From assembly GCA_946807835.1 (NCBI GenBank), contig OX327705.1, positions 16,150,501-16,214,500 on the forward strand: a stretch of 64,000 nucleotides of DNA, in the 5' to 3' direction. The DNA comes from Ailanthus altissimus. Its lineage: Eukaryota; Streptophyta; Magnoliopsida; Sapindales; Simaroubaceae. Below, piece after piece: positions 1,908 through 62,870 of the stretch (position 1 is its first letter; the number at the start of each line of letters is the position of its first letter). The translations under genes and the position numbers were made by a program. The notes under the pieces were generated by a model, which had not been told where the DNA came from, made no database searches, and saw only the letters and a list, made by a program, of their open reading frames with translations.

Positions 1908-1959
1908 ATTCCTTTTCCTTTCTTGGTTAGGATGTATAGAGAATTCTAGATCATAAGAC

Positions 1960-5160: not shown

Positions 5161-5224
5161 TCCAGAACAAGTTGATCTCGAATTAATCTATTCAGAACAG
5201 TCAGAACTAGATAGTGATACAATC

Positions 5225-7190: not shown

Positions 7191-7194
7191 CTTC

Positions 7195-8274: not shown

Positions 8275-8994
8275 TACCCAAAATCCTGGTGGATAAACAA
8301 ACTACAACACCTGCTGTATAAACATCTCAATAGTGTAGTTCAACCAAAACACCTATGGACAGTCCTTCTCCTCCAACGAAAAGGAATAATAGTCTCAGAC
8401 TATGAGATACATTATTACCCCACTGTTAAGGACTATTTTACCTTCCCTTACTCTCTGCAGTTGTTTCAAGAACACCACAAAATGGAAATAAGAGCTCTAG
8501 AAAGAGTCCTGGCAGAAGAAAATCAGATAATTCCTCCATCAATATGGATTTTTTCTGAAGATGATGCACCTTGGGAGAATGTGTCGACAGACTTCTCTGA
8601 AAGAATGAACAATGCAGACTCTATTTTTTGCAGAAACCAGTTTCAGACCTCTCTGACACATCATAGGCAGACTGATTATGCCAGACATCATCACTACAAT
8701 CCAAACCTGAACGAACCCCCAAAACCAGATAGTTTCCCACAACCAAGCGTGCCATGTGACCACATGCAAGAAGATGACACCTCATAACAACCCAACTTGA
8801 CTCTATCACTGTTCCAAGATGACCAACCTTATCCAACTGACAGTGAAATCCAACAGGAAGCAGCCATGTTAGCAAGCACAAGCTTGATGGAACCCGCATC
8901 ACTAGACACGAGAAGCTTTTGGGCCCAATTCAATGAATTTACCCAAGGCTATGACAATGACAACTCAAGCTACTCGTCCTTTCATAATGAATAA
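8275..8994 (+). pseudogene. C-terminal region of the caulimovirid polyprotein, relic
   Basis: Continues the frame of the third repeat unit with 'WTVLLLQRKGIIVSDYEI' and a Tyr/Phe-rich stretch to about 8460. A hydrophilic Asn/Gln/Pro-rich tail follows in 8461-8787 and 8797-8994, split by a TAA near 8785. No enzymatic motif is visible. In florendovirus-like genomes a region of this kind closes the polyprotein; its function is unknown to me. Confidence 0.6.
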
Positions 8995-27966: not shown

Positions 27967-29786
27967 ATGTACCATCACCCCCAATATCAAGGAAAGAACA
28001 TGCACTCTTCTTCAAGAATGCCTATCCCTGCTGAAAGGCATTTGTTCCTGCAAGGAGGGAATGGACCCGGAGATTCTGGCCTTGTCCTTTCAACTGATGC
28101 CAAGCCAAGACTAAAATGGACACCTGATCTTCATGAGCGATTCATAGAAGCTGTCAGTCAACTTGGAGGAGCAGACAGTAAGTATAAGCATTCAAGAGTT
28201 ATCATATCACTGAAAATGTGTAAATGAATTTAGCTAAATCAAATTTTTGTTTAATGTCGCAGAGGCTACTCCCAAAACGGTTATGAAACTTATGGGGATT
28301 CCAGGACTTACCTTGTACCACCTAAAGAGTCATCTACAGGTAAATTATCAATTATAGAACCAGATACATATTCGAACAATAATAAATATGCCAACTATGC
28401 AAGTACTGGCCAAAGATTCATGTTCATTTTCTTTGCTTCCAATTATGTTTGTGAATTCTTGGGGTTCTGGGGTGAGTCCTGTTTATTTTGAAACAGACAG
28501 ACACTTAATACAGTTGAACTTTTTTGGCTAGCAGAAGTACAGGCTCAGTAAGAACCTTCATGGACAAGCAAATAATGTGCAGAATAAAATTGGTAAGAGG
28601 ACAATGTCTCATAAATCTACAATGAGTTTCAAATTAAACAGGGGGATAAGATTTGTGATACTCATTTCTCTTGGAATTAAAGTTTAAGTCACCTTGGTGT
28701 AGGTCCAGTTGCTGTGGCTGGAGAGAGAATTCCTGAAGCAAATGGAGCTCATATGAACAACTTAAGCGTCGGACCTCAACCAAACAAGTAAGAGAATTGA
28801 TTTAAAAGATACTTATTTGTGATTAAAGTAATATTAATTTATGTTCTTGTGCTAACAAGGAAAAATTTGAAATCCAGAAACTTACACATAAGCGAAACAA
28901 TACAAATGCAAATCGAAGTGCAGAGAAGATTACATGAGCAACTTGAGGTAGAGTACACTTTCAAAACTTTGAAACTGGAAGTACTTTTGAAAAACAATTT
29001 TTTAATAAATCATTAGTTGCATTCTGATGACATGTTTTGGATTAAATTAACCAGGTACAACGACATTTACAACTTCGCATGGAGGCTCAAGGGAAATATC
29101 TCCAGGCAGTGCTGGAGAAAGCCCAGGAGACTCTTGGAAGACAGAACTTGGGCACAGCAGGACTTGAAGCTGCCAAAGTTCAACTTTCTGAACTCGTGTC
29201 CAAAGTTTCCACTCAATGCCTAAACTCAACATTTTCAGACCTGAAAGAACTGCAAGGTTTCTGCCCTCAGCAGCAACAAGCAAACCAGCCCACCGATTGT
29301 TCAATGGACAGTTGCTTAACATCCAGTGAAGGGTCTCAAAAAGAGCAAGAGATATACAATGGTGGGATCGGATTAAGACCTTATCATAGCAGTTCGACGT
29401 TAGAGCCAAAAGAGATTGTGGAAGAGCCTATGCTGCAGCAAACAGAACTCAAGTGGTGCAAAGATCTGAAAGACAGCAAGTTTCTTTCCTCAATAGGCAA
29501 GGATGGATGCGCTGGTGATTTATCAATTGGCATCGGGCTCCAGGGAGTAAAGGGCAGTAGCTGCTTTTCTGACGGAAGATTCAAAGCCAGGAATGATGAT
29601 GACAATTTCCTCCTGGACCAAGCCAGAAAGAAGCCTGATTCAGTTAAACTAGAGAATGAAAAGCTATCACAGGGTTATAGACTACCATATTTTTCGACTA
29701 AACTGGACCTGAACACCCATGATCATGAAAATGATCATACTTCAAGCTGTAAACAATTTGACCTGAATGGTTTCGGCTGGAACTGA
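27967..29786 (+). CDS. MYR: MYB-CC (GARP) transcription factor, MYR1/MYR2-like, intact
   Basis: The only intact host gene in the window. Predicted coding exons are 27967-28177, 28263-28339, 28535-28592, 28703-28787, 28860-28947 and 29055-29786. All introns are GT..AG with consistent phases, giving 416 residues without a stop. Residues about 46-100 form the single MYB-like GARP DNA-binding domain, from 'KPRLKWTPDLHERF' to the 'SHLQKYR' motif that spans the exon 2/3 junction. Residues about 154-205 form the coiled coil ('QMQIEVQRRLHEQLE', 'QGKYLQAVLEKAQETL') used for dimerisation in the MYB-CC family. The C-terminus has an LDLN EAR-like motif and ends 'FDLNGFGWN', as in Arabidopsis MYR1/MYR2. 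Those proteins act in the nucleus; family members govern flowering time, gibberellin-linked growth and phosphate-starvation responses. Which role applies here is inference. Confidence 0.92.
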
Positions 29787-45176: not shown

Positions 45177-45878
45177 CTATAGACGAAGCGTCAAACCTAT
45201 CTTCCGTTTCTTTTTGTTGTCATCAGTATACCAATCATTCTTACGCATTATTGGATTAGATCGAGGTGTAAAAGCTTGTAGTTCATCGAGTAATTGATCA
45301 ATAATTGAAGCAGAAATGAGGATCTGGCATGTTGTAGATGAGACGAACTGTTTGCCCACAGCATAATCAAGAAAAGATAGTAACTCATTATAAAAATCAT
45401 CAATATTTAACAAACCAATGAGTTTTTGGTAGATTTACAATTATGCCCATGTGAAATTTGAAAATTTTCCTCCAAAGTTCCAAAAGCTCTATATAGAGCT
45501 ATGAAGGCATCAGCATTCTGAAGCATAAAAGACATTCGTGCATGCATTGATGATACCTGTAACTAATCCCCAATTTTTTTTCCTACAATATTTCCAACAG
45601 TTAGAGCTTTCGATATGATACTCAAAACTCGACTGCTTATTTTGTGCAGCGGTTGTCACACATCCCATTAATCCAAGACTACCTCCCCTATATATTAAAT
45701 GAATTTTTCGCTCAGCTAACACCTTACCAAGTATTTCTGCTGCTTCTACAAACTCTCTAATTTTTTCAGGGCTGGATCCACAAAAGACACAAATTTTTGT
45801 AAATTTATTAGTTGATGTTCCTTCTATTATTACACTCACCCTTTCTCTTGAATGATTTGAGTTTGTATAAAGATGCAA
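45177..45878 (-). pseudogene. Captured LOG-like cytokinin riboside 5'-monophosphate phosphoribohydrolase (Athila-R copy)
   Basis: Translation on the minus strand gives an almost full LOG protein. N-terminal 'KICVFCGSSPEK' is at about residue 30 of the open stretch, followed by 'ILGKVLAERKIHLIY' and 'RGGSLGLMG' (LOG consensus has GGG). The C-terminal half reads 'VSSMHARM', 'NADAFIAL' and 'FGTLEENFQIS' (about 45440-45540), then 'NIDDFYNELLSFLDYAVG' and a basic end. LOG enzymes release active cytokinin bases from their nucleotides in the cytosol. The PGG of the PGGxGTxxE motif is replaced (YRA) and frameshifts lie near 45600 and 45425, so it is inactive. The codon before the conserved start is ATA, possibly a lost ATG. 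No intron is visible. It lies downstream of ORF X in the env position of the element. Confidence 0.85.
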
Positions 45879-45890
45879 AAATAATGCAAT

Positions 45891-45899
45891 TTATTTATA
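45891..45899 (-). promoter_or_regulatory. TATA box upstream of LOG in Athila-R
   Basis: TATAAATAA on the minus strand, about 80 bp upstream of the first recognisable LOG residues. The equivalent place in Athila-F has CTCTATAAATA. Both are followed by a purine-ending 'aaaggtgagt' stretch. It may be a promoter for separate expression of LOG, carried by the element. Confidence 0.5.
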
Positions 45900-46128: not shown

Positions 46129-46564
46129 CTATAGGTCGAGGATAGGCTTCCCATCTAATTTTCTTATAAATTGATAAACAGGATCTTTTAAAGTTAGATT
46201 CCCGAGACTATACCACTCATGTTCTTTGAAGAATATGTCTCTTAATTCATAAATTGTAATATGCACATATCCAGTAGGATGCGTCTCAAGAGTCAATAAG
46301 ATATCATTTAAAGACTCCTTACTCAGGCCATCCTTAATAAACCTAATTTTATCTTTACAATTTATAGACACCATTCCTAAAATGTGGCAATATGTGTTGT
46401 AATTCATGCATGCACACTTGTAACAAACGCTTAATTGTTTTGCTTTTCATTTTTTTGCAAAAGAGCTTTTACCTAAGCTAGGCATGTAGGAAATTAATGA
46501 GTTTGAAAAATCACTTGTTAATCAAACTTTAGCTTCAATTAACCAACGTACATAAATAGGTATA
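46129..46564 (-). pseudogene. ORF X of Athila-R (uncharacterised), 5' truncated
   Basis: Minus-strand remains of the same protein as 56379-56925. 'RWLIEAKV' is at the truncated start (46548), then 'MPSLGKSSFAKK', 'FIKDGLSKESLNDILLTLE' and 'HEWYSLGNLTLKDPVYQFI', ending 'KLDGKPILDL'. It keeps residues that Athila-F has lost and the reverse. I know no family for it. It is cut at 46564 by a copia LTR. Its place after pol suggests an env-like or accessory role, which is inference only. Confidence 0.7.
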
Positions 46565-47765
46565 TATTAGGGTCAGTGCTTACGTGCCATCCCTGAATGT
46601 ACATAGACTTGTGTATTTATACAAGTATACATTCCCATTAAATCACTAATACCTATTTATATGATACTATGCAATGTAACATTACAGATATTGTATGAGC
46701 TAAAGAATTTCAGATCAGACCTGAAGGAGTTTAGATAAGGGCCCATAGTTGGCCACACTAAGAGATATAAATGCTAAATATTAGCATAACTAAGTGTTAG
46801 CTGGTTATAATACTCAGCGAAGATCCAAGAGTTGGAGTCTTGTCTGTAATGGGACATAGACCTAGGAATATACTAGTAACTACATAGTTGCAAGAGTTGC
46901 AATCGGGTGCCAAAAAATGTCAGTTACGCAAGTATGTTCTCAAATAATTATCCATGATCTATTTCTGCCAATGCGGGTCTATCGATGGATACTTTTAATA
47001 TAGATCAGCATATGTCATGCCTATAGGGTATAGATGGTCATTCCTAGCCGACTGTAAGCTTGGAGCTTATTTTGACATATGGGTATCTAGTTAGGACTGG
47101 ATGTAGGACAGACTCACGAGGACCTCCGATAAAAATACTATGTAAGCCGTCAACGGAGGGTCCTCTCAAGTTTAGTAATATACGTGGTCCTTTGACCTAA
47201 GTGTCACAGTGGGCTTGTAAGTGATCCACCATACTTTGGTTTCACGCATATCACAGATCTTTTATGGTGTGACCGTTGGGTGTAGCTGGGTATGGTTCGA
47301 TGTTTATAGAGTCTGGTGTGTATAGATATGGGATCTATCAGCTCGCATGGAAGTTTGATATCTAGATGCTTCGAGATTGTATCTCAGAAAGTCTTGTAGC
47401 CACAAGCATTAATCCTGAGAAAGAGTTTCTGCCAGGGTGGAACAATATGGCAAAGAAGTTTGCACATATTGTTTAGTGAGATACAAGTTCAGCGATAAGA
47501 CTTGGATGAGCATATGGGGATTTGATGGTGATAATCTATATCCCTAGTACATCCAGGATATCATGATGGAAGGACTATACGTATGCGTTATAATCGCAGA
47601 TTGTATGGTTCAATGCGTTGATTTCTATATCTATGACGTGTACGTAGGGCAATGTTCACAGACTCATAGAATAGTTCCATATGAAAAATTGAGCGTGGAC
47701 CTGGGGAGTCTTGCGATATGGAGTGTACTCGTTGTGCACTGGGACAGCGTGCCAGATTAAATTGT
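46565..47765. mobile_element. Truncated copia LTR, same family as 13796-17831
   Basis: Starts 'tattagggtcagtgcttacgtgccatccc', matching TGTTGGGATTTGTGCTTACG with end mutations, and follows the other copy through 'gtgatccaccatrctttggttycac' (near 47222) and 'gtgtactcgttgtgcactggg' (47724). The match ends near 47760. It adjoins a minus-strand copia RT fragment, so both may be remains of one minus-strand copia element with internal deletions. A 65-codon open stretch at 47563 is not supported. Confidence 0.75.
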
Positions 47766-48140: not shown

Positions 48141-48280
48141 AAGGTGACTCAAATGAATTTATTAAACACATTTCTAAAGGATCGGTAAAACTCCTTTTTT
48201 GAATATGATCCTCCACAATTGTTTCAATTATGTCGGCTTCTTTACTTTCATCCTCCCTCTTATATGGTTGCTTAGACATA
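48140..48280 (-). pseudogene. Downstream part of Athila-R protease region
   Basis: On the minus strand 'MSKQPYKREDESKEADIIE' and 'DPLEMCLINSFE' follow directly from the protease at 59310 ('LNVFNM') once Athila-F is removed. The same place in Athila-F reads 'NIFNIGKQPLEEDE'. It joins the copia fragment at about 48140. Confidence 0.75.
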
Positions 48281-49838
48281 TGATGAACACATGAAAATGC
48301 ATATTTGTTAAGAGATTCAGTCACCATTTAATGTCACTAATTTTAGCATTTTCTTGTATCTTTAGCTTGAAATAAAGTATTCTCCTTAAATTGTGATTAA
48401 TGAATATTATTTGCACAAGTTTAGGTAAAATGGACATAATTCTCAATGTAGAAATCAAAATGAAGAAGTTCTTGAACATAGAGTAATATGACTCAATCTT
48501 ACAAAAACTTGAATAATAGTTGAAAGCCAAATCCAACATATTATGGGCTAAACATTGAGATACAATAGAATCGGGCTACAATTTTCGTTCAGCTTGACCC
48601 AACTCATGTATTTGAACTGTATATCACAAAATACGTACTCAATTGGTATAATTATTGAAGCTGTGAAATACGAACTTAATTATCAATAACTCTTATATTG
48701 ATGGTAAAGTCCAAATCAGTCGTTATCATGGACCAAATTGCATTGCAAATGGGTAAAAGGGTTGTTAGTTGAAATCTGATGTATCTTTGGAATTTTGCAC
48801 ATATTGCATTGGATACTCATCCAATTTGCATGAACCTGGTGCCTATGAAAAGAAGAGACAAAATGATACAACTTTCATGTTGTCCTCAGAGGCTACATCA
48901 GTCATTTACATTATAAAAAATGCGCTGTAAGTGGGTGAACGAGTTATTGGCCTAAATTATTGAAGATTGATGTCACATTTCCATTCATTTCCTATATAAG
49001 AACACTCTTAGGGAATTTTTAACATTAGATAATTCTCTCTTATTTTTTTCTCATTAACATGTATTGTAATTTAGGCTAAAGTTCTTGGTAAGGCTAAGAG
49101 ATAAACGTTTATGTGTAATAAATCTACTTCTATGCTTTGATTCGTTGTCAAGAGCTATAAATGTTTGTAAGTTTGATTATGCTTAAACTTTTATCTATTT
49201 TATTTTTTATAATCCACAGGTTATAATTCTCATGTTTCATATATTTTCAATCATACTTTCTTTATGTGATTCTTGTTGAATTATAATTGTTATTGGTTAC
49301 ATTGTTTTATATGTTAATCTTTTACTACAATATTGTCAATTGATATATTGTCGATCTTGGATAACATGTAAAGGCAATAAATGTTTGATATTCAAGTTGA
49401 TCTTTTACTGCAATATTGTCAAAATGATATGTTGTCGATCTTAGATAACTTGTATAAATAAACATGATTTGTGTTAATATTTGCAAAAGAGTTTAGTCAT
49501 ATCAAATGTATATGTTATCAAATGTGCTATATTTTACATATCTTTCGATTGATTGTTTAGATGTAAAACTGTCAATTGAGATATAAACATTGAATTAAAG
49601 AGTAGAGTAGATTTATAAAGCATGATTGTGATTCTCGAAACCTTATTTAAATCATCATAAGATATTTTTCTCAATTCATAGACAATTCTATCTCATCCAC
49701 TTAAACCAATTAATTAATTTTTTCCTTTGCTACTGCTTTAATATTTCACTTCACCAACCTATTTTGCCAAAAGCTTTCTCGTGAGATCGACACCTCAATC
49801 TATACTGCGATAGCCGCATTACATTTTGAGCGTAAACA
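48281..49838 (+). repeat. 5' LTR of Athila-F
   Basis: 1558 bp, TGATGAACAC to GCGTAAACA, matching the solo LTR at 14386-15943. A possible core promoter is 'cctatataagaacac' near 48991-49005. Minus-strand open stretches inside it are not supported. Confidence 0.95.
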
Positions 49839-49842
49839 AAAT

Positions 49843-49861
49843 TTGGCATCGTTGTCGGGGA
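49843..49861 (+). promoter_or_regulatory. Primer-binding site of Athila-F
   Basis: TTTGGCATCGTTGTCGGGG resembles the Athila consensus TTGGCGCCGTTGCCGGGG and lies 4 bp after the LTR. Confidence 0.85.
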
Positions 49862-49864
49862 GGT

Positions 49865-50725
49865 ACACTAAGTGAAAGTCGGTTGCGTTTATCAATACTA
49901 AAGTGGTAACTTTGTACATTGTTTTTTCTTTGTAAAATCTTGATTTTATTTTCTTTGTTGTAATGCATTTTATTGTTCATGGTTGGTTCTACCACTTAAT
50001 TTATTTTATTTTCTTAGTTAATTTGTTATATTTTATATTATTTTAATGACTGATTTTACCGTCTAACTTAGTTCATTTTCTTTTATTTATTTATTGTGCT
50101 GTGCACTTTATTTTTTTTTATTTATTTATCGAACTTTATATTCTTTTATTTATTTATTATACTTTATTTCTTTAGTTAATTTGTTGTATTTTTATTTTAA
50201 TAACTGGTTTTACCGCCTAACTTAGTTTATTTATTTTGCTTTAGTTTATTTATTGTACTTTATTTATTTATTGCACTTTTTTATTGTACTTTATTTTTAT
50301 TTTATTTTATTTTATTATTGTACTTTATTTTCTTTAGTTAATATGTTGTATTTTTATTTTATTTTAATGGTCAGTTCTACTACCTAACGTTTTATTTATT
50401 CATTTACTTATTGTACCTTTTTTTATTGTACTTTTTTTATTTTTTTATTTTTATTTATTTACTGTACTTTATATTTTATTTTTCTTTATTTATTGCACTT
50501 TCTTTTCTCTTATTTACTTATTATACTTTTTTTAAATTTATTTACTGTACTTTTGTTTTCTTATCGTACTTTACAGTTTATTATCTTTTGTTCATTTATT
50601 GTATTTATATTTCATGGTTGGTCTTACCACCTAACTCATTTCTATTTCTTGTTGTGTTTTATTTCACTTCTTAATTTTTCTTGAGCATTTCTTTCATAAA
50701 AACAAAAGAGCAAAAAAAAATTATT
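49865..50725 (+). repeat. T-rich leader with dispersed repeats in Athila-F
   Basis: About 850 bp before gag, strongly T-rich on the plus strand, built of 'tttatttattgtactttattt'-like units. A 'ggttggtctta ccacctaac'-like motif recurs at about 49980, 50050, 50205, 50368 and 50617. The open stretches it yields (for example 50411-50674) are all Phe/Leu/Tyr and are artefacts of composition. Confidence 0.75.
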
Positions 50726-50727
50726 AG

Positions 50728-52086
50728 GATGTATACATCGACTTAGAGACAAGCGAGAAAGATTTGTGAGAGAAGTAAAACTAGAACCATCACCACAATT
50801 TATAAGGGAAGAGAATTCACCATCTAATTCATCTTGTAATTCCAACACAATGAGCCAACATGAAGATAACTTCGTTAGGACTCTAAAAGATTACTTGCAT
50901 CCTACTCGCACAGCCACACCATCATGCATTATATTTCCACATAACACACCACATTTAGATTTTAAACCTAGAATGATACAACTTCTACCCACTTTTCATG
51001 GTCTAGATAGTGAAAATCCTTATGTACATGTTAGGAAATTTGAAGAGGTAATTGCCACATTCCATAGCCAACCCCGAAGCTATAGATATTGTTAGGCTTA
51101 AATTTTTCCCTTTTTCTTTGAAAGACAAAGCAAAGAGTTGGCTATACTCTTTGAGGCCGAGGTCTATAGGAACTTGGGCAGAAATGACCCAAGTATTTTT
51201 TAATAAATACTTCTCACGACACAAAACTAATGGCCTGAAAAGAAAAATTTCTTCCTTTTCTCAAAAAGACAGTGAAACCTTACATTAAGCATGGGAAAGG
51301 TTTAAAGAGTTGCTAAATCTGTGCCCTCACCATGGGTATGAAAATTGGCGCTTGGTTAGCTATTTTTATAAGGGACTCATAATTAGAGAATGCTAATTTG
51401 TTGAGATGATGTGTAATGGGGAGCTTCTTCACAAAGATCCTGAGGAAGCCATAGAATTCCTTAATAACTTAGTCAAAAAAGCCCATACATGGACTGGACC
51501 TAGCATTACTGAAAGCATAAATAGGTCACGGCCCAGTGAAGTTTTCCATCTTAGGAAATAGGATAACCTTAAAGCCCAATTATAAGTCTTAACTAGGGAG
51601 TTAGAGGCCTTAAAAACTAAATATAGAAGGGTCACCCACACGGTTGCTAAGGTTGAGTCATACGATGTCTGTTTTCTCTGTAGAGGCGCGGAATACTTAG
51701 CTCAGGATTGCCCCACTTATAATGAGATGAGAGGGATATATGAGGAACAATGTAATACCCTAGGGATATACAAGAAGCCTTATTCACCGTACTCTGAAAC
51801 CTATAATCCTAGCTGGAGAAACCACCCAAACTTTAGTTGGAAATCTGACCAACAAGCCAACAGTCATTGGAAACAAGAACAACAAGCACCCAAGTTTTAT
51901 ATTGCACCTCAATATAATGCACGACCAGCTAGGATTCCTTTAGAGGATACATTACAAGCATTTATGGAGGCACCAAGTAAGACTAATCAAAAATTTGAAA
52001 TAATTCTTGCGCAGGTGATAGATGAAAACAAAAAACTCAAGAGTCAAATCACAAAGCTGACTAGTACCTTAACTGTACAAGAATGA
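50728..52086 (+). pseudogene. gag of Athila-F, relic
   Basis: The capsid-like core starts in 50766-51095 ('RTLKDYLHPTRTATPSC', 'FKPRMIQLLPTFHGLDSE') and continues after a frameshift near 51085 with 'RLKFFPFSLKDKAKSW' and 'WAEMTQVFFNKYF', the Athila gag signature. A knuckle near 51670-51712 reads CFLCRGAEYLAQDC, where the His of CX2CX4HX4C is Tyr. A Pro/Asn/Gln-rich tail and a final Lys-rich helix end at 52084-52086. Stops at 51286, 51374 and elsewhere. Confidence 0.82.
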
Positions 52087-52239
52087 GGTACGTTTCCATC
52101 TCAACCTCAATCCAATCCGAAAGGACAATTCATGGCATAAGCTTCTACTTCTGATGCTCAAAATTTCAAAGAAGTCAATGCCATTATTACTCGAAGTGGT
52201 AAGATTGTAAGTGAGCCTACTTCTGAAATTAACACATCT

Positions 52240-53262
52240 ATGAGTAGTAAAGACGCCCCTCTTGAAAAAGAGTCCATAGTAGAAAAAGAGCCCAAAAATA
52301 CGTTTTCAATCCCAGTGCCTTTTCCTCAAGCTCTTCGATCGGTTGGGAAAAATTCAGAAATTCAAGGTGAGATTTTGGAACATTTGAAACAAGTTAAGAT
52401 TAATCTTCCCTTGTTGCATTTGATTAAGCAGGTTCCAACTTATGCCAAATTCATCAAGGATCTATGCAATATCAAAAGAAAACACCACACAAAGAAAACT
52501 GCATTTTTGGCAGAATAGGTAAATGCAGTGATTGAACAAAAAATACCACCCAAGTATAAAGACCCAAGATGTCCCACAATCTCCTGCCAAATTAGGACAC
52601 ATGAATTTGGTCAAGCTTTGTTGGACTTAGGAGCAAATGTAAATTTAATGCCTTATTCTATTTACTTGCAATTAGGACTTGGTGAGATTAAACCTACATC
52701 TGTAGTCTTACAATTAGCTGACCGATCAATCAAGAAACCATGGGGAATAGTAAAAGATGTTTTGTTGCAAATTGATAAATTTTACTACCCTGTTGATTTT
52801 CTTGTTTTAGATACTCATTCTGTTGTTAACATGGAGTCAAAAATCCCTCTTATTTTGGGGAGACCTTTTCTTGTCACTGCTAACGCTCTTATTAATTGCA
52901 GAAATGGTCTAATAAAATTATCTTTTGAGAATATGACTCTTGAGGTGAACATTTTTAATATTGGTAAACAACCACTAGAAGAAGACGAATGCTATCATTC
53001 ATATATGATAGACACACTTGTAGCGGAGAAAGCTTATAAAAATCATGGCTCTGATTCTTTGAAAAACCTTCTCAATTTTGATTTTGAAGAATTGTATTAT
53101 CCTGATGTAACAACAAATGTGTTTAGTATTTTTGACTCACAGGATAAAGGGACTCGATTTTGGCAGCCACGCTTTGAAGAGTTGCCACAAGAGAATGAGA
53201 GATCAAAACTATTAAACCTCGAGACACCACAAGTTGAGCTTTTTTCACGTACAAAGCTTTGA
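52240..53262 (+). pseudogene. Protease of Athila-F, nearly intact
   Basis: Two in-phase stretches split by one stop (TAG at 52516-52518). The first (52240-52518) is the gag-protease linker, with 'LEHLKQVKINLPLLHLI' and 'YAKFIKDLC'. The second holds the aspartic protease: catalytic DLGA at about 52624-52635 (Athila elements commonly have Leu here), 'VNLMPYSIY', 'IPLILGRPFL' near 52840 and 'NALINCRNGLIKLSFENM'. It ends at 53260-53262. This is the best preserved domain of Athila-F. Confidence 0.85.
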
Positions 53263-53399
53263 AACACGCATTCTTGGGACCAGGTGATACCTTTCCTATC
53301 ATCGTTTCTTCTGAACTTAGTGCTAAACAAGAGAACAAATTGATAAAATTATTAAAATAACACAAGTCTGCACTAGGTTGGACCATAGCTAATATTAAA

Positions 53400-54240
53400 G
53401 ATATTTCTCCATTGATACATTCCCATAGAATTCATTTAAAGGAAGGTGGCCAACCTCGTAAGGATCCACAAAGAAGACTTAACCCAACAATGAAAGAAGT
53501 AGTGAAGAAAGAGGTCTTGAAACTATTAGATACGGGTATAATCTACCCAATTTCTAATAGTCAATGGGTAAGTCCAACTCAAGTAGTGCCTAAGAAATAT
53601 GAGGTTACTATTGTGAAAAATGAGAATGGGATACCTATTCCAACTAAGGTGGTAAATGGTTAGCGAATGTGCATTGATTATAGAAAATTAAACACAACCA
53701 CTAAGAAAGACTATTTTTCATTGTCTTTTATCGACCAAATTTTAGAAATGTAGCTGGATATCTTTTTTATTGCTTTCTTGATGGGTATTCAGGATATTAC
53801 CAGATTGAGATAGGTATAGAAGACCAAGAAAAAATCACTTTTACATGCCCTTTTGGTACTTATGCTTTTCGTAGAATACCATTTGAATTATGTAATGCAC
53901 TAGCTACTTTTTAGCATTATATATTGAGTATTTTTTCTAATATGGTTGAAAAATGCATGGAAGTTTTATGGATGATTTGACTGTTTTTGGTAATTTTTTT
54001 GATTTATGTCTACTTAACTTGAAAGCTATTTTGAGTAGGTGTGAAGAAAATGAACTTGTGCTAAATTGGGAGAAATGTCATTTCATGGTATCTTCAAGAA
54101 TCATTTTGGGGAACATTGTATCTGAAAGAGGGATAGAGGTTAACAAGGCTAAAATTGAATTAATCTCTAAATTACCTACACCCAAAATGGTAAACGATGT
54201 CTAATCTTTTCTTGGACACACTGTCTTTTACATAAGGTTT
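53400..54240 (+). pseudogene. Reverse transcriptase of Athila-F, relic
   Basis: Fingers at 53412-53663 ('LKEGGQPRKDPQRRLNPTM', 'ISNSQWVSPTQVVPKK'), a stop at 53661, then 'CIDYRKLNTTTKKDYFSL'. The palm 'FTCPFGTYAFRRIPFELCNA' is at about 53840-53900. The polymerase box FMDD is near 53964-53975, with both Asp kept, after a one-base frameshift. The thumb is at 54040-54200 ('LNWEKCHFMVSS'). Stops at 53751, 53817 and 53911. Confidence 0.85.
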
Positions 54241-54830
54241 ATACAAAAAATTTCTATCATATCTAGATCATTGTGTAACCTTTTTCTAAAAAATGCAGAA
54301 TTTACATGGACACAAGAGTGTGAGGAGGCATTCCGAACACTTGTTGCCAAACTCACCACCGCTCCTATCATGCAATCACCAGATTAGAACCTCCCATTTG
54401 AAATTATATGTGATGCAAGTAATTATGTTATAGGAGCAGTTCTTGGGCAACGTAGGGGAGGAAACCCTTTGTTGTTTATTATGCTAATAGGACTTTGAAT
54501 GATGCTCAGATGAATTACACTACTACTGAAAAAGAACTACTAGCTGTTGTTTTTACCTTTGACAAATTCCATTCTTATTTGATTGGTTCACCTATTGTTG
54601 TTTTTACTGACCACGCAACCCTTAAGTACCTTCTTTCTAAGAAAGATGCTAAAGCCCGTTTAATAAGGTGGATTCTTCTTTTACAAGAATTTGATCTAAC
54701 CATCAAAGACAAGAAAGGTATTGAAAATATTGTTGCTAATCATCTATCCTACCTTGAGTTCACTGACTCTACTGATCTACCACGCATTCGAGATAATTTT
54801 ATTGATGAACATCTTTTTGCTATAAGCTAA
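54241..54830 (+). pseudogene. RNase H of Athila-F, relic
   Basis: 'PFEIICDASNYVIGAVLGQ' at 54397 carries the first catalytic Asp. '[19 protein letters not shown]' has the Glu block, '[19 protein letters not shown]' the third Asp, and '[20 protein letters not shown]' the C-terminal end. The last 111 codons (54495-54830) are open; a frameshift occurs near 54460-54490. Confidence 0.85.
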
Positions 54831-54889
54831 ATACCTTGGTATGCACATACCGTAAATTATTTAGTTTGTGGTGAACTTCCATCTAACTG

Positions 54890-56133
54890 AAGTGCACAAT
54901 ATAAGCGTAAGTTCCTGGTTGAAGTACGTAATTTTTATTGGGACGATCCATATATTTTCAAATACTATCCTGACCAAATTAGGAGACGTTGCATTCCTAA
55001 AAGTGAAGTTTCTAGTGTCTTAAATTTTTGCCATAATGCTACTTGTAGTGGTCATTTTCTATGAAGAAGACAATTGTAAAAATTTTACAGTGTAGTCTTT
55101 ACTGGCCCACTTTGTTCAAAGACACTAATAATTTTTTTCGTCCCTGTGAAAGATGTCAAAAGTTTGGTGCTTTATCTCAAAGACATATGATGCCTCTTAA
55201 CCCTATTCTTGATATTGAGATATTTGATTGTTGGGGTATCAATTTTATGGGTTCGTTTCCCTGATCTTTTATCTACCTTTACATTCTTTTAGCTGTTGAC
55301 TATGTATTAAAATGGGTGGAGGCTGTAACTTGTCGTACTAATGATAATACAACTGTGGTAAAATTCTTAAAAGAAAATGTGTTATCTAGGTACGGTATGC
55401 CACGTGTCATCATTAGTGACTAAGAAACACATTTTTGTAATCGTTCTTTTGAAGCTTTGATGCGCAAGTATGGTATTCTCACAAAGTTTCCACTGTATAT
55501 CATCCACAGACAAATGGACAAGCCGAGTTAGCAAATAGAGAGGTTAAACAGATTTTGAAAAAAACGGTTAACCCGAATCGTAAAGATTGGTCTCTATGCC
55601 TTTCTAATGCATTATGAGTATATCGCACTACATACAAAACCATCTTAGGAATGTCTCAATACCGGCTTGTTTATGGAAAAGCTTGCTATTTACCTGTTGA
55701 GCTAGAGCATAAAGCTTTTTGGGCTGTTAAAGCCCTTAACTTTGATTTGAATGCTGTAGATCTTCAGAGAAAGTTACAATTGTCAGAAATAAAAGAGTTA
55801 TGAAATGACGCATATGACAACTCCAGAATTTACAAAACTAAAATGAAAGCAACTCATGACAAATAGATCTCAAGGAAACACTTTAAGCCAAATCAACGAG
55901 TCTATCTTTATGATTCTCGATTGCATTTACACCCTGAAAAGTTGAGATCTCGATGGACTGGTCCATTTATGGTAAGGCACGTTTTTCGTAATGGTGTTGT
56001 CAAAATTGAGGACCCCACTGATGGGCGAACTTTCAAAGTGAATGGACAGCGGCTGAAAAGATATATGAAAAAGGTAGACCACTCTATGTACCTAGACGAG
56101 ATCCCTCTTGTAGATCCTGTCTATCATGCTTGA
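54890..56133 (+). pseudogene. Integrase of Athila-F, relic
   Basis: The zinc-binding domain has His residues near 55030-55045 ('CHNATCSGHF') and the CX2C of 'CERCQKFG' at 55147. The core starts with 'DCWGINFMGSF' (55228; first catalytic Asp as in the D,D,E core), then 'SRYGMPRVIISD' near 55387 for the second Asp. The C-terminal 'RSRWTGPFMVRHVFRNGVVKI' and 'VNGQRLKRY' at 55945-56070 are typical of Athila. The stop is at 56131-56133. Several stops lie between 55260 and 55870. Confidence 0.85.
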
Positions 56134-56378
56134 TCAGGTTTTATCTATTTGTACTATATTTCATATTTTATCTATATTTTATCTTTTGACTTTTTATTTT
56201 TTCTTTTATTTCTTTCACATTTTATTTTACTTTATTTACTTCTTTTTTTTTCTTCAGTGTGATTTTAATTCCCGGTTAAATGGCGGATACGGTACTCCGT
56301 GACTATTAAAGTTGGTTTCTCAGTTCCTTAAAAACTATCCCTCAAAATGTGCATTCATCTCTTTTCTTTCTTTCAAAA
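56134..56378 (+). other. Spacer between pol and ORF X in Athila-F
   Basis: A 245-bp non-coding spacer. It has a pyrimidine-rich run (56180-56257) ending 'ttttttttcttcag', a good splice-acceptor shape, 120 bp before the ORF X ATG. Env-like ORFs of retroelements are often expressed from spliced RNA, so a spliced subgenomic message is possible. This is inference. Confidence 0.4.
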
Positions 56379-56925
56379 TGGATCGCATTCTTGTCAACCT
56401 TAAAAAACATTTTCCCTCATTGCCTCAAAATGCTCTACTTAAGATTTACAAAGTATAGTGTGAAAGACTAAGGCTATTGATGTTGTGTAATATCCCTGTG
56501 GATCTTCGTTGGTTAATTGAAGCCAAGGTTCGATTATCTAGTGAGTCTGCAAATGATTTTGTTTCTCATATGCCTAATCTTAGAAGAAGCTCTTATGCCA
56601 AAAGGTGACGAGCAAAGAGGTTACAAGTCTGTCATAAATATGTTTGATGAAATTGTAACCGAAGTTGTCGTTCTTTAGGATTTACATCTAGAAATCGAGA
56701 AGACAAAATTCAGTTCATTAAGGATGGACTGAGTAAGAAGTCTTTGGATGATATCCTATTGACTCTTGAGACGCATCCCTGTGGACTCATGCAACGTGAA
56801 CTTCTCAATTTATGTAACAAATTAAAAAATGAACATCAACGGTATAGTCTCGAGAATCTGACTCAAAAAGACCATGTTTGCGAATTTATTAAAAAATTGG
56901 ATAAGAAGCCTATCCTCAACCCATA
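56379..56925 (+). pseudogene. ORF X of Athila-F (uncharacterised)
   Basis: Begins at ATG 56379 ('MDRILVNLKKHFPSLPQN'), continues with 'VDLRWLIEAKVRLSSES' and 'MPNLRRSSYAKR', and after stops and a frame change reads 'FIKDGLSKKSLDDILLTLE', 'RYSLENLTQKDHVCEFIKK' and 'KPILNP', ending at 56924-56926. Total length about 180 codons. No signal peptide or transmembrane segment is seen, so it does not look like a classical envelope protein. The Athila-R copy preserves the same ends and spacing, which suggests that the protein was under selection in the element. Function unknown. Confidence 0.65.
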
Positions 56926-57197
56926 GAGGGTGTTTAAGCCGTTACTGGACGTAAAACCAGAGGAAGATGTGAGCCACAATCACAACTACTTGTAAATACA
57001 TATGTTTTAAATTCAAAATTTTATTTTATTTTGTTTTATTTTATGAATAATATGGTTACTCATGTAGATATCTTAAATTTAAATCTTTTTGTTCAATAAT
57101 GCATGTGGCTCATTATGTTTAAATTTTTGTATTTTATTTTTAACTCCCTTCTAACAAACTGTCTGGTTACCACAATCATTGTTATCATTTGGTACTC

Positions 57198-57205
57198 TAT
57201 AAATA
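57198..57205 (+). promoter_or_regulatory. TATA box upstream of LOG in Athila-F
   Basis: TATAAATA in 'ctctataaatacag', 36 bp before the first in-frame ATG of the LOG remains (57252). Athila-R has an equivalent TATA at the corresponding place. Confidence 0.5.
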
Positions 57206-57240
57206 CAGCACCTCATTTTCTTTATTTTCATATATTGAGA

Positions 57241-57739
57241 TAAAGGTGAGTATGGGATGTGTATCAACAGCTACACATTTAGGAGGAAGTCAAGTTTTAG
57301 GTATTTTTCCTACAGCTTTAGCTGTGAAAACCTAACTAGGAAAACAATAAGGGAAAAATTACGAGTCTCATCCATGCATGAACATATAGCTAGAATGCTT
57401 TACAATACAGACGTTTTTATTGCTTTACTTGGTGGTTTTGGTACCTTGTAAGAAAATTTTCAAATTGCCTCTTGGACCCAGCTAAATATCCATCAGAAAC
57501 CCATAAGTTTGTTGAATGTTAATAACTATTTTAATTGCTTACTCTATTTTCTTGATCAAGCTGTGGAACAGAATTTTATTTCATATTCGGCGCGATAGAT
57601 CCTGGTTTCTGCTACCGAGGCAGATGAATTAATTGACAAATTACAAGCAGTTACCTACGAACTTGACCTAACAATAACTCAGATCGATTGGACAATGGGC
57701 CTTAACAAGCGAAAATTGGATCTAATACTTCGTTTGTAA
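57241..57739 (+). pseudogene. Captured LOG-like cytokinin riboside 5'-monophosphate phosphoribohydrolase (Athila-F copy)
   Basis: Covers the C-terminal three quarters of LOG. 'GCVSTATHLGGSQVLGIFP' corresponds to the segment after GLMG. After one frameshift (near 57330) it continues 'LRVSSMHEHIARMLYNTD', 'FIALLGGFGTL', then '[19 protein letters not shown]', '[12 protein letters not shown]' and a basic end 'NKRKLDLILRL'. LOG hydrolyses the N-glycosidic bond of cytokinin ribotides. In the PGGxGTxxE motif P is Leu, and the codon after GTL is a stop (57449-57451). Another stop is TAG near 57596. The first quarter, with the 'VFCGSS' and GGGS region, is deleted; Athila-R retains it. Both copies share the same C-terminal end. 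No intron is seen. Confidence 0.87.
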
Positions 57740-58905
57740 ATTTTTCTTTGTTTTATTTATTTATCAACATCATTATTTTAGATTATATTTGTTTAAGTAT
57801 CTCTCAGGTTTGTTTCTTTCGAATAACTAGCGTTTCAGGTAATGTCTCATATACTTTATCTCTTTCTATTTAAACATTGAGGATAATGTTTCATTTGGTT
57901 TGGGAGAGGATAGTAGACATAAGTTGCATTTTACATTTTTTTTAAAATAATAATTGTGGTTTGATATTTGATTAAAATGGCAGAGTAAAGAGTTCATTCT
58001 TAAACTCTTGAGATACATTCTAGGTCAAATTAGAATGTCGGAGTAAGGAGTTTTATTTCTAACTTTTGAAATATATTTTAACTAACTTTTTGTTGTTTTA
58101 TTTTATGTTTCATGTATTGTTGTTTATTGCTTGTAGTCTTAGTAATTTTTGTATAAAGGAATTTGTTTTTCTACCTTGGTATAATTTCAAAATTGTTTAG
58201 GTTGAGCCACTGTTTCTATTTAGGTTTTAAAAAATGACTTCCAAAATATTTTTGAGCACAATGCTAAGCCTTGTGGTAAGACAGATGATTCAATTTATAT
58301 AGCTAAGAGAATTCTCATGTTTAAGTATATATTTTTCTAATCTCACATATCTTTTGTGGGTAAGTGGAAAGGTTGAGAAAACAGCTTATGAACCATCATT
58401 GATCCTTTGAATTGGTTAATTTTTGTTTAGATTGATATTATTTGAGGGATAAGTTAGTTGCATTTATGTATAATATATTTTGGTGAGAAATTTTTTTTTA
58501 TTTTGTAATGCTTCCTTGTATTCTTTAAAAAAAAGATTTAAAAAAAGTAAAAAAAAGAAATATATATATATTAAAAAAGAAAAGAAGAATTAATTCAGTT
58601 TAATAAAGTCTTCATTCAATTTTAGAAGGCAAATATCTTGTAAATCAGTTTTCTCACCAAGCTATATTTGTATTATTCTCACAAGACAATTGAAGTCCTA
58701 AAGCTAGTACATGTCAAGAATGATTTATTTCTAAACGATTGATTTGTCTATCTTTATATCAATGTTAATTTGTATGTCTATCCTTAAAATTAATTTTTTC
58801 TTGAGTGCTTAACTGTTTTCCAACTCCATGAGAGAAATCATAACCTTTTAAACAGTCATACACCTATGAGGATATGGAGTTGAGGTTTTTCCTTAGAGAA
58901 ATTCT
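57740..58905 (+). other. 3' region of Athila-F, non-coding
   Basis: Corresponds to the minus-strand 3' region of Athila-R. It has poly-A-like 'aaaaaagaaaagaagaa' tracts near 58530-58590. The polypurine tract and the first 1.16 kb of the 3' LTR are absent. Two short repeats 'ttaaactcttgagatacattcta'/'ctaacttttgaaatatatttta' lie at 58000 and 58055. Confidence 0.7.
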
Positions 58906-59304
58906 CAAAGATAACTTGTATAAATAAACATGATTTGTGTTAATATTTGCAAAAGAGTTTAGTCATATCAAATGTATGTGTTATCAAATATGCTATATTT
59001 TACATATCTTCCGATTGATTGTTTAGATGTAAAACTGTCAATTGAGTTATAAACATTGAATCAAAGTGTAGAGTAGATTTATAAAGCATGATTGTGATTC
59101 TTGAAGCCTTGTTTAAATCATCATAAGACATTTTTCTTAATTCATAGACAATTCTATCTCATCCACTTAAACCAATTAATTAATTTTTTCCTTTGCTACT
59201 GCTTTAATATTTCACTTCACCAACCTATTTGGCCAAGAGCTTCCTTATAGGATCGACACCTCAATCTATACTGCAATAGCCGCATTACATTTTGAGTGTA
59301 AACA
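58906..59304 (+). repeat. 3' LTR of Athila-F, 5'-truncated
   Basis: Matches 49443-49838 ('ataacttgtataaataaaca' to 'gtgtaaaca') with about 19 differences by eye. The outer end is complete and followed by the ACATA duplication. The inner two thirds are missing. Confidence 0.9.
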
Positions 59305-59800
59305 ACATATTAAAAACATTGAGCTTAAGTGTTATGTTTTCAAATGAAAGCTTCATTACTCTATTCCTATAATCAATCAAAGCGTTAGAAGTTGCTAAAA
59401 ATGGACTACCCAAAATAACAGGTATCGAATTACATCATTTAGCAGGTTTTGTGTCTAAGATAATAAAATCTACAAGATATATGAATTTATCAACTTGAAC
59501 TAAAACATCTTCCACTGTCCCTCTTGGTAGTTTTATTGATCTATCGACAAGTAAAAGAGTTACAGAAGTTGATTTTAACTCACCGAGATTGAGCTACTGA
59601 TAAACTGAATATGGTAGTAAATTTACACCAACACCAAGATCAAGTAAGGCTTGTTCAATTTTATAACTTTCAATAATACATGAAATTGTAGGACAACCAG
59701 GGTCTTTATATTTCAAAGCATTATTGTTCTGAAGAATGGCACTTATTTGTTCAGCTAAAAATGCTTTCTTTTTCACATTCAATTTTTTTTTACTATGCAT
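59305..59800 (-). pseudogene. Protease of Athila-R, upstream part
   Basis: On the minus strand 'KKKAFLAEQISAIL', 'YKDPGCPTISCIIE' and 'ALLDLGVGVNLLPYSVYQ' (the DLGV triad has Val for the usual Ala), then after stops 'ALIDYRN'-like and 'LNVFNM' at 59310. The Athila-F insertion follows at 59304. Confidence 0.8.
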
Positions 59801-61593
59801 AAATCCTTCAAAAATTTTATATAAGATGGAACCTGTTTAATAGAATCCAATAAAGAAATATTAACTTTTACCTGTTTGAAGATTTCAAAATTTTCAGGAT
59901 TGTAATTCATCTTCTTAGTATTACGTAATATATGAGGAAATAAGGGTGGAGGTGAGGGTTTGGTGTTTTCTTCATTAGGTGTAAGTTCAATGTTTTTTCT
60001 TACCCTTAAAGATTGATTCATCATTCTCACGAGGTTCAGAAATATTTTTTTCAACAATTTTACAATTCCAAAAAGTGATAACCACTTTAACTTGATCCAT
60101 GTGTTGGCTTTTTAAACTACATGCATTTGAGTTATGTTGTCCTTTGGGGTTTGGCTGTGGTTGAGAAGGAAATTTTTCTTTCTCATGAATGTTCAGTGTG
60201 GATACAAATTTAGCAAGAGTGTCTTTCAAATCAGCAAATGTTTGAACATTTTGAGAATTAATAGACTCTTACTTTTCAATGAATGCATGCAAAGTTTCTT
60301 TAAGATTGTTCTTAGGAGGTAGGACATATAGTGCATAACCTTGATGGTTTTGAAAAGTTTGGTGTGGTTGAAAAGGTAGTTGTGAAGCCCGTGCTTGAGT
60401 GTCCTTCCTATAACTAAAATTCGGGTGATATCTCAATCCAAGATTGTAGTTTTGTGAATACGGGTTATTGTTTGACCGTTTGAATAATTTTAGAACATTT
60501 CCTTATTTATGGAGATATTCCTTAAATGCAGAAAAACTTGGGCAATCATTAGTAAAGTGATCATGGATTTCACAAATGTGACACAATTTCTTGAACAGAT
60601 TTTAATGGACCACACTTTTTCATTTCTAAGGTTTTGACTTTTCTAGCTAGGGATATTAATTTGACTTGAAGGTCATGATCTTCCCTAAGATGATAAATAC
60701 CCCGACTAGATGTATTGGTTTGATTTTTGCTAGGTGCCTCATAGGTACCAGCAGTGTCCCAATTTTAAGCATTTTCTACTAGTAAATCAAGATAGTTAAT
60801 TACCTTTTCTGGGTCTTTATCCTCAAATGTTTCATTACACATCATTTCTACCATTTTTCTAACTTGGGGTGTTAAGCCCTCATAGAAATTTGAGACTAGT
60901 CTCCATGTTTCAAAGCCATGATGGGGACAGGTATTAAGTAATTCTTTATACCTTTCCCAACATTGGTAAAGGGTCTCTTCTGGTTTTTGGGCAAAAATGG
61001 TGATTTGTCTTTTGAAAGAATTTGTTCTATGGGAAGGAAAAAAATTTTAGGAATTGTTGTTACATCTCATCCCATAAAGAAATAGATTCTGGCCTAAGAT
61101 TTTGCAGCCATGTTTTAGATTTATCTTTTAAAGAAAAAAGGAAAAGCTTAAGTCGAATTGTGTTCATGCTACAATTTTGGTCATTATACGTGATACACAC
61201 TTCTTCAAATTCTCTTAAATGTAGATAAGGGTTCTCTGCATCTAAGCTATGAAAAGTGGGTAAAAGTTGGATAATGTCTGGCTTAAAATTAAAATAAGTT
61301 GCATCCGGAGGAAAAATTAAACAAGATAGTGCACCGGTTCGTGTAGGGTTCATATAGTCTCTAAGTGTCCTAGGTAGGTTATGGTCATTATATTGAGACT
61401 GATTGTCCCATGGGTCTATGAGTCCCTCAATTTGATTTTCGGTCATAGTGTTAATTGGTGAAGAATAAGAAGATGAAGAAGAATCTAATAAATTATCAAA
61501 GGAAGTACCGAAATTACCTTTCACCAAACGATGAGAATTAGGATCTCGAAACCAACCACTCATACAAAGAAATAAAATAAAATACAATAACAA
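59779..61593 (-). pseudogene. gag of Athila-R, relic
   Basis: The minus-strand frame 61593-61060 begins the gag with 'RTLRDYMNPTRTGALSC', 'FKPDIIQLLPTFHSLDAE' and 'RLKLFLFSLKDKSKTW', the same family as Athila-F gag. A complete knuckle CHICEIHDHFTNDC (CX2CX4HX4C) lies near 60540-60585, unlike the broken one in Athila-F. The linker and the segment 'LKQVKVNISLLDSIKQV' end near 59830. Several frameshifts (about 61055, 60320) separate the parts. Serine- and Asp-rich residues follow the first Met. Confidence 0.82.
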
Positions 61594-61883: not shown

Positions 61884-62870
61884 TGACATGTCCAGAATAT
61901 AAGAGTTTATTCTTAAGTGTAGGATTGTCGAAGTAATAAATAACCCGGTGAGAACAGAGTTGATCCACAGAAAAGTAGAATTAAAATTACAAACTATAAA
62001 TACTTTAAAGACAATTAATGCAGTATAAGATGTTTGTAAATATTAATTCAATTAACCATTTCAAATAAAAGCTAAGGTTATGGGGATTTACTCTTGGCAT
62101 ATTAAGTAAGAATATATTCAACTCTTTTTATAACTCAATTGGAATCCTCACACGAAGGAAGTTCCAACCGGAAGATCTAACAATTAAAGTTCATCACCAT
62201 TTATATATTAATTAGTATTTATTTCTTTCAATTATTATATACCAAATCTTATAAATGGGTTCAAGTATTTATTATGCCTATTTTTATATTTGTCTACAAT
62301 AAATCAAGACTCTTACTTTACAAAAAAAGGGTATATACGCCAAATCTTGTACATAGTTTCAAGAATTCATTATGCCAACTATAAAAATTGTCTATAATAA
62401 ATCAAGATACACCACTTTAGAAGAAAGGGTATTAATATTACAAATAAAATAAATACATTATATATAAATTTGCATAACTTAAGAAGAAAATATTAAATTC
62501 ATAAATAAGAATTAAGTATATCTTATTACCTTGCCAAAAGGTTCATCCTTTCATCTTAGCATAAAAAAAATTACTTGGACATAATAAAACTAAAGAAAAA
62601 GAAAAGAAATGGAAGAAGAGATAACATGACTTTAGAATAATAAACAAGAGAAATTATGTTACAAATAGATAATACAAAAAACAAGTGTTTTAAACTAAAA
62701 TCTAACTCTCTAATTACATCCTTTGGTCATAAACATGCTACCTATTTATAAAAAAATATGGATAAATTGAGACAAATGAAAATGGAATCACTTGAATGAT
62801 AAAAGTTAAGAATGGTGGCAAATAATTTACATTGAATATCATTAATGCATTGATAAGGGCAAATTTGTCA
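61884..62870 (-). repeat. 5' LTR of Athila-R (approximate start)
   Basis: On the minus strand it ends 'ctggacatgtca' at 61884. A TATAAATAGG box lies at 62741-62750 (minus). The start lies near 62849-62870 and is not resolved; TGCATTAATG (62849) or TGACAAATTTGCCC (62870) are candidates. It differs in sequence from the Athila-F LTR, so the two elements belong to related but distinct families. Confidence 0.6.

Follow-up and report, generated by a model that had tools for sequence, protein, structure and literature searches.

Background

Can a plant retrotransposon carry a LONELY GUY (LOG) gene, the type of gene that activates cytokinin, and would such a gene serve the element that carries it? 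This question is raised by the window studied here, a stretch of 64,000 nucleotides. An earlier note, made from the letters alone, had placed a LOG sequence in the env position of an Athila element in this window and had been aware of no earlier case.

The case is not wholly new: a LOG domain in plant Gypsy elements is already in print. Gene capture by plant LTR elements is known in general (PMC7264820), and the YgdH (LOG) domain has been recorded in Gypsy LTR consensus sequences of Citrus sinensis and C. clementina and also, without a filter, in Gypsy elements of Populus trichocarpa (Alvarado-Marchena et al. 2022; PMC9289625), a result in line with Steinbauerova et al. 2011, as cited in that paper. 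The Citrus and poplar elements share with those described below the enzyme domain and the element superfamily, and Populus is among the LOG matches obtained here. LONELY GUY is named in that paper, the sections 5, 12 and 17 of which do not discuss the position, copies or function of YgdH and contain nothing on its lineage, copy state, active site or promoter, nor on a tail or a nucleic-acid-binding protein (NABP) partner. The same paper describes a functional AlkB-type RNA demethylase of orchid Gypsy elements, likewise a host-type enzyme fixed as an extra ORF, but in an Ogre-related element and acting on RNA rather than on a hormone. A literature search, judged by title and start of abstract, gave no other relevant report on LOG in retroelements and no prior report of NABP in retroelements. 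LOG in plant Gypsy elements is known; what seems to be added here is the kit of NABP and LOG, together with its state and features.

Results

LOG copies in the window

The window holds two LOG copies, one in an element on the plus strand (the F element) and one in a minus-strand element of a second family (family A), with the following features.

48276-48280, plus strand: TSD ACATA left of the F element (direct reading; equals 59305-59309)
48281-49838, plus strand: 5' LTR of the F element (TGATGAACAC...GTAAACA; ends read directly)
49844-49861, plus strand: PBS of the F element, tRNA-Asp type (5 bp past the LTR, 3 transitions from the exact form)
50856-56130, plus strand: gag-pol of the F element in broken frames (tblastn with a related polyprotein of the same genome, pieces 47-72% identical)
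56378-56923, plus strand: ORF X of the F element, a broken NABP homologue (tblastn 56375-56923, 63%)
57198-57205, plus strand: TATA box 5' of the F-copy LOG, TATAAATA (direct reading)
57252-57739, plus strand: LOG remnant of the F element, ending KRKLDLILRL (profile, structure-relative and tblastn matches)
58909-59304, plus strand: 3' LTR remnant of the F element, 5' part missing (94.75% to 49443-49842)
59305-59309, plus strand: TSD ACATA right of the F element (direct reading)
61884-62841, minus strand: 5' LTR part of the A-family Athila (86% to the LTR of an A-family copy)
59306-61563, resuming at 48288-48145, minus strand: first part of gag-pol of the A-family element (tblastn 71-88%)
46135-46563, minus strand: NABP (ORF X) of the A-family element, broken (tblastn 76%)
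45891-45898, minus strand: TATA box 5' of the minus-copy LOG (direct reading)
45177-45827, minus strand: LOG of the A-family element, full length, but disrupted by loss of the start codon and by frameshifts

The F element spans 48281-59304, with LOG inside its LTR and TSD bounds, and is inserted into the minus-strand Athila, the remainder of whose pol was not found by tblastn in the window. The LOG blocks quoted by the earlier note for 57241-57739 are present in the plus frame at about 57400-57600, and the similarity is far above background: the best solved relative of this copy is At2g37210, an Arabidopsis LOG (E = 6.8e-29), and Pfam Lysine_decarbox is matched at E = 3.5e-23, the query for Pfam, but not that for At2g37210, including a short manual frame join at its 5' end. 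The second copy, which the note had put at 45177-45878, was recovered on the minus strand, where 45890-45510 matches the LOG N-terminus in one open stretch (E = 6e-12) and the C-terminal half lies further on. An open LOG of the same genome, used in tblastn, matched 57314-57736 (55%) and 45827-45180 (55%). Chance similarity as the source of the LOG match is ruled out by the Pfam, At2g37210 and N-terminus E-values.

Both copies are broken by stops and frameshifts. Judged by eye, codons 1 to about 58 of the F copy have been lost between a pair of ATGG words, and in the minus copy the expected ATG start reads ATA. In both window elements LOG lies between integrase and the 3' end; the observation of an element-borne LOG is thus confirmed and its interpretation as Athila-type carriage in the env position is supported. 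Two further statements of the note stand in part: both copies are dead in the window, as it said, but many LOG frames are open beyond it; and the order of ORF X and then LOG after integrase is correct, but ORF X, far from being an unknown frame, is a NABP homologue.

Several other features were seen in the window. An F-type solo LTR at 14386-15943 (match from 14377; TSD CATCT; 86.7% to the 5' LTR of the F element) sits within sequence that is nearly continuous at 46576-47743. An endogenous pararetrovirus (caulimovirid) occupies 1957-8787, with movement protein, protease, RT and RNase H domains in broken frames and a 360-bp unit in about 3 tandem repeats near 7192-8211. An exon with the MYB-CC motif LHEQLE at 29046-29786 probably belongs to a host transcription-factor gene.

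Genome-wide copies and the structure of group A elements

A search of the same genome (939 Mb, 37 contigs) with PF03641 gave 4943 first-look candidates, the best 150 of which were scored; all 150 exceeded the cut-off and span the domain without a stop, and since these are the best-scoring matches they do not give the share of open LOG copies. By manual count, the match stops at profile position 130 in 87 of the 150 rows (A-like) and at position 131 in the other 63, the latter number being an upper bound for B-like copies. A 44-base tag of the A-family LOG occurs 580 times at up to 3 mismatches, and its reversed control 0 times. Ten copies with long flanks were fetched, together with 20 rows hand-picked down the table with 4-kb windows.

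The five long-flank copies of group A have LTRs of 1437-1441 aligned bases that are 99.51-99.93% identical, an exact tRNA-Asp 13-mer as PBS (TGGCGCCGTTGCC, 5/5) 6 bp after the LTR, and the order gag-pol, ORF X, LOG, 3' LTR. Gag-pol is a single frame of 1844 aa in one of the five and is split in the other four, and the ORF at the place of ORF X measures 195-229 aa. Pfam analysis of one A-copy polyprotein found gag, protease, RT, RNase H and integrase in gypsy order. Rates of 1.3e-8 and 5e-9 per site and year are used for LTR dating, and the LTR divergence then corresponds to 27-188 or 70-489 thousand years, respectively. Among ten further A rows, ORF X lies upstream of LOG in all, an LTR start follows downstream within the stretch in nine, and a 217-aa LOG opens from ATG in nine, the remaining one having an early frameshift. 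LOG is therefore placed after ORF X in 15/15 A copies, with the 3' LTR seen in 14/15.

Perfect 5-bp TSDs flank 9/9 elements examined (A1-A5, B1, B2, B4 and B5), B3 being excluded from this reading by its rearranged flanks. Where LOG is open, its frame has 215-217 codons and no intron. One of the rows ending at 131 proved to be an Athila of the F type in which both ORF X and a LOG of 215 aa are open; the F family of the window therefore also has open-frame relatives. The earlier note had proposed to look for many Athila copies with LOG in the same place, some of them intact, and for LOG inside LTR pairs elsewhere, and both were found: the tag recurs in the genome, open frames are many, and the sampled copies lie in LTR elements, with TSDs in every element examined. 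Neither of the outcomes that the note had named as refuting, LOG similarity at background level or LOG confined to this locus outside LTR-bounded elements, was obtained.

We call these elements Athila-type from their tRNA-Asp PBS, their gypsy domain order and the sense extra ORFs (NABP and LOG) between pol and the 3' LTR. With Athila, Calypso and Diaspora they share a tRNA-Asp PBS 5-6 bp beyond the LTR, LTRs of about 1.5 kb, one long gag-pol, and sense ORFs between pol and the 3' LTR; they differ in that the env-position genes are NABP and LOG and that Athila ORF-1 is not matched. A tRNA-Asp PBS about 5 bp past the LTR is a feature of Calypso and Diaspora (PMC1142308). Pfam searches of ORF X and of the polyprotein gave no match to Athila ORF-1 (PF03078), both matching other families; this domain occurs in 16% of Athila elements and is hence not defining (PMC6317226). 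The env position of the Athila-type elements in this genome is occupied by two genes in sense orientation, first that of a NABP-like Cys-rich protein and then LOG.

Group B: a non-autonomous element with antisense LOG

LOG was also found in a second kind of element (group B, including L020, L022, L024, L026 and L028), in which direct repeats of 2727 bp, 100% identical in one copy, enclose an interior of 3.7 kb. This interior holds LOG and, in the same orientation, a fragment of a caulimovirid polyprotein; a gag-pol belonging to the element was not seen in it. The iMet-type PBS (TGGTATCAGAGC) lies on the strand opposite LOG in 5/5 copies, and LOG is therefore antisense to the element. Some copies follow one another in tandem at a spacing of about 6.6 kb. 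A LOG-bearing circular virus, considered from this spacing, was rejected in favour of a tandem LTR element on account of the 2727-bp LTRs, the TSDs and the opposite-strand PBS. Ten rows ending at 131 were sampled, nine being of the B kind and the tenth the F-type Athila. The nine B rows all have the B LTR, seven the caulimovirid piece, and six a 217-aa LOG, one of the others being frameshifted and two lacking the expected start.

Groups A and B have in common a segment around LOG, from about -229 to +626/670, that is 77% identical and runs from the TATA box past the stop into sequence also present in both window Athilas. Because of this extent, the non-autonomous B element most likely took over its LOG unit from an Athila.

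Catalytic site, fold and tail of the LOG protein

LOG copies of A and B (one each) score 137.7 bits with PF03641. Protein relatives of the element LOG numbered 190 at E<=1e-3, the best 120 of which were compared with 120 host LOGs (LOG1/3/8 types; the best 120 of 7998 scored). Arg98 is kept in 114 and Glu121 in 119 of these 120 best relatives, against 120/120 of the host LOGs for each, and the whole PGGxGTxxE motif in 94/120 against 111/120. A model of a Populus relative is mostly confident in its core, with the tail (196-217) below pLDDT 50 and so disordered, and its top Foldseek match is At2g37210 (E = 2.3e-22), a Rossmann-type LOG fold. Fold, PGGxGTxxE motif and invariant Arg are thus shared with plant LOG enzymes (At2g37210, At5g11950), from which the element LOG differs in forming a clade of its own, in being intron-free and in its C-terminal tail, basic and with LxLxL.

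This tail, in which the last 12 residues combine a K/R cluster with LxLxL, occurs in 88 of the 120 best relatives, a count to be read with the shortness of LxLxL and the mutual relatedness of the 88 sequences in mind. The LxLxL end is found in 0 of the 120 listed host LOGs, six of which have the K/R pair alone; the 32 listed relatives without the combined end include many short sequences and a few near variants such as LDFSLSL. Conservation across 14 deep lineages chosen by hand is 0.75 in the tail, 0.50 in the linker before it and 0.83 in a core stretch. Group B copies mostly end in IDLNLTP. The EAR consensus takes the forms LxLxL and DLNx(x)P, and ZCT1/ZCT2 contain LDLNLTP (PMC9956375). To judge from its residues, the tail is like a nuclear signal joined to a TOPLESS-binding EAR motif. 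The oomycete effector HaRxL21, which has a C-terminal EAR motif, recruits TOPLESS, and the same study states that an EAR motif does not suffice for TOPLESS binding (PMC7446885). Both proteins would bring an EAR-type end on a foreign protein into the plant cell; HaRxL21 is a secreted effector with shown TOPLESS binding (PMC7446885), and TOPLESS binding by the element LOG is putative.

An outer set of relatives, mostly from Xanthoceras (P0008, P0019, P0042, P0079 and P0101), has a basic end without LxLxL in four of five members (KKRKLA, KKRRLA or SKRRRLD), that of P0101 being different. This set could represent the donor host lineage or older elements.

ORF X

An open ORF X copy of the same genome matches Pfam Viral_NABP (PF05515) at 28.2 bits, above the cut-off of 23, and Carla_C4 (PF01623) at 18.8 bits, below the cut-off of 20.9. 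At E<=1e-3 it has 514 protein relatives, the 120 listed of which carry a precomputed PF01623 label. The core consists of a basic RRAK stretch followed by a CxxC...C...C pattern, and a strict regular expression for its start fits 81 of the 120 relatives listed (of 514). The fold model (pLDDT 52) is too weak for use. By these profile and motif matches, ORF X is a homologue of the carlavirus-type cysteine-rich (zinc-finger) nucleic-acid-binding proteins, and its presence beside LOG appears to be an addition to published knowledge. The basic stretch adjoining a Cys-rich core is shared with the NABPs of carlaviruses and mandariviruses; in contrast to these, the protein here has about 182 aa and lies in a retrotransposon, and its activity is predicted. 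Two related mandarivirus proteins have been reported, one suppressing silencing and the other inducing cell death (PMC12172455).

Promoter and transcript signals

The TATA box TATAAATA lies upstream of LOG in 20/20 sampled copies, 73 bp before the ATG in one A copy, 68 bp in one B copy and 60 bp in the F-type copy; its background in the window is 0.023 per 100 bp per strand. In 14.5 kb around one A copy it occurs 3 times on the LOG strand, at the same site in each LTR and before LOG. It is less telling at B1, because it occurs there 8 times on the LOG strand. AATAAA follows the LOG stop after 99 bases in A4 and 56 in B1, and was not found within 300 bases after the stop in the F-type copy. The TATA box, with AATAAA in A and B, suggests an independent LOG transcript.

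GGTGAGT or GGTGAGC (GGTGAGA in the F-type), a splice-donor-like word, is conserved just before the LOG ATG in A, B, F-type and window copies. The Melia azedarach protein P0073, the only one with a gag start joined to LOG among the 120 listed LOG relatives (best of 190), begins with 24 residues that are 67% identical to the gag start of family A (E = 9e-7) and continues as LOG. To judge from this joined sequence, P0073 ties LOG to the same kind of element in Melia; it may represent a spliced gag-leader message, as a rival to an own promoter, or a gene-model artefact.

Phylogeny and distribution

A tree of 83 rows was built from 47 of the 120 listed relatives, 30 of the 120 listed host LOGs and 6 own sequences, and a branch supported at 100/100 separates all 30 host rows from the others, in an analysis whose bootstrap had not fully settled. 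When three bacterial-type outgroup rows were included, 22 element-type rows (20 relatives and 2 own) formed one clade (99/93), beside which stood 14 host rows (99/97). As the sampled element-type LOGs form a clade apart from the sampled host LOGs, a single old origin of the element LOG is the simplest reading of a tree in which the host sample lacks other LOG clades and the branches are long. Not every relative in the tree has been shown to lie inside an element.

The plants named among the 120 listed relatives are Populus, Xanthoceras, Diplodiscus, Reevesia, Melia and Parasponia; the three that were looked up belong to Sapindales, Malvales and Rosales, and we take the remainder to fall likewise in several rosid orders. 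Some of the Populus relatives are annotated as LOGL10. The longest contigs of the LOG relative P0035 and the NABP relative P0129 both measure 8723 bp and come from the same source, and those of P0057 and P0126, again from one source, both measure 4511 bp; these matches of size and source suggest that LOG and NABP are paired in other species too. Other LOG and NABP contigs of equal size (905, 950, 734 and 1558) were dropped, being too short for both genes or from different sources. A scan of IMG/VR for LOG gave only two loci, of bacterial type.

Selection on LOG

By the Nei-Gojobori method, 25 A-B pairs of LOG gave dS of 0.42-0.50 and dN/dS of 0.30-0.36; these pairs are not independent, and B1 and B2 share an identical LOG. 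The F-type LOG gave dN/dS of 0.12-0.14 against four A copies at dS of 1.8-1.9, near saturation, and 0.21-0.24 against three B copies. Within group B, pairs with B5 gave 0.21-0.28. Within recent A copies the changes in LOG look neutral (small counts), as is expected after insertion. For NABP, one pair (F-type against one A copy) gave dN/dS of 0.21. The comparison between families shows LOG to be under purifying selection.

Discussion

The explanation that we favour, and hold to be modestly probable as a whole, is that an active plant LOG was captured and that it serves the element together with the NABP partner and the tail. One old capture of a plant LOG gene by the element would have provided an active cytokinin nucleotide 5'-monophosphate phosphoribohydrolase, whose expression would be separate from that of gag-pol, through a promoter of its own or a spliced leader message. 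Release of free cytokinin would hold the host cell in, or push it into, a dividing, meristematic state, in which new insertions would best be inherited, to the presumed benefit of the element. The NABP-like partner may suppress silencing or serve as a regulator, roles that proteins of this kind can have in plant RNA viruses, and the tail may carry LOG into the nucleus and to TOPLESS co-repressors. In a later step a non-autonomous element would have acquired the LOG unit from an Athila. The many open LOG frames elsewhere in the genome suggest that the enzyme serves the element; its role is likely to be local activation of cytokinin where the element replicates, and perhaps also nuclear repression.

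How far the enzyme activity itself matters is the point at which the strongest alternative departs. The LOG fold might owe its retention mainly to a repressor function in the nucleus, exercised by recruiting TOPLESS and directed, together with NABP, against host defence or silencing, with cytokinin activation secondary. Conservation of the tail over deep lineages and its absence from the host LOG controls speak for this, as do the recruitment of TOPLESS by an effector with a C-terminal EAR motif (PMC7446885) and the resemblance of the group B end IDLNLTP to LDLNLTP of ZCT1/ZCT2 (PMC9956375). A pure scaffold, however, would not need the catalytic Arg (114/120) and Glu (119/120), and we regard a mainly regulatory LOG as rather unlikely.

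It is less likely still that LOG is a passive passenger, transduced by chance and spread only with the element, for which it would have no function. Gene capture of this sort by plant LTR elements is known (PMC7264820), amino-acid changes accumulate freely in recent A copies, and the LOG copies of the window are dead. Against it stand dN/dS of 0.12-0.36 between families at dS of 0.42-1.9, the active-site residues kept in most of the 120 listed relatives, the single clade with relatives in several rosid orders, and a second element that carries LOG with open frames in 6/9 sampled copies.

Entry of LOG through the endogenous pararetrovirus (caulimovirid) whose 3' fragment lies beside it in group B, followed by a move to Athila, seems very improbable: that fragment and LOG do share an orientation, and the fragment recurs in 7/9 further B copies, but the segment common to A and B extends from the TATA box into post-stop sequence that both window Athilas also have, the pararetrovirus of the window has no LOG match, and the LOG of the F-type Athila is further from A than B is. 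That host LOG genes merely lie beside retrotransposons, or were hit by them, has in its favour only that host genomes do hold LOG genes, and can be practically dismissed in view of the constant placing after ORF X (15/15 A copies, with the 3' LTR in 14/15), the intron-free frames, the TSDs around the whole element (9/9) and the separation from sampled host LOGs in the tree.

Beyond the capture of an active LOG serving the element, a bolder reading can be put forward tentatively, as possible but on the doubtful side: a two-gene kit for reprogramming the host, made up of a zinc-finger regulator of viral type and a LOG that has a promoter of its own, would enter the nucleus and would recruit TOPLESS there. 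In meristem cells, from which insertions pass to the offspring, such a kit would activate cytokinin and repress host genes, and it would have been maintained by selection in several rosid orders.

Conclusions

LOG, with its conserved catalytic residues, and the NABP-like protein both have testable activities, and their presence bears on the advantage that env-position genes bring to plant retrotransposons. Should LOG work, the retroelements of a plant genome can contribute well over a hundred additional open frames that activate cytokinin, with consequences for the route by which elements enter the germ line, for gene annotation, as with LOGL10 of Populus, and for the origin of cytokinin genes. 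If the two-gene reading is true, these elements would be a plant counterpart of the retroviruses that bear growth factors.
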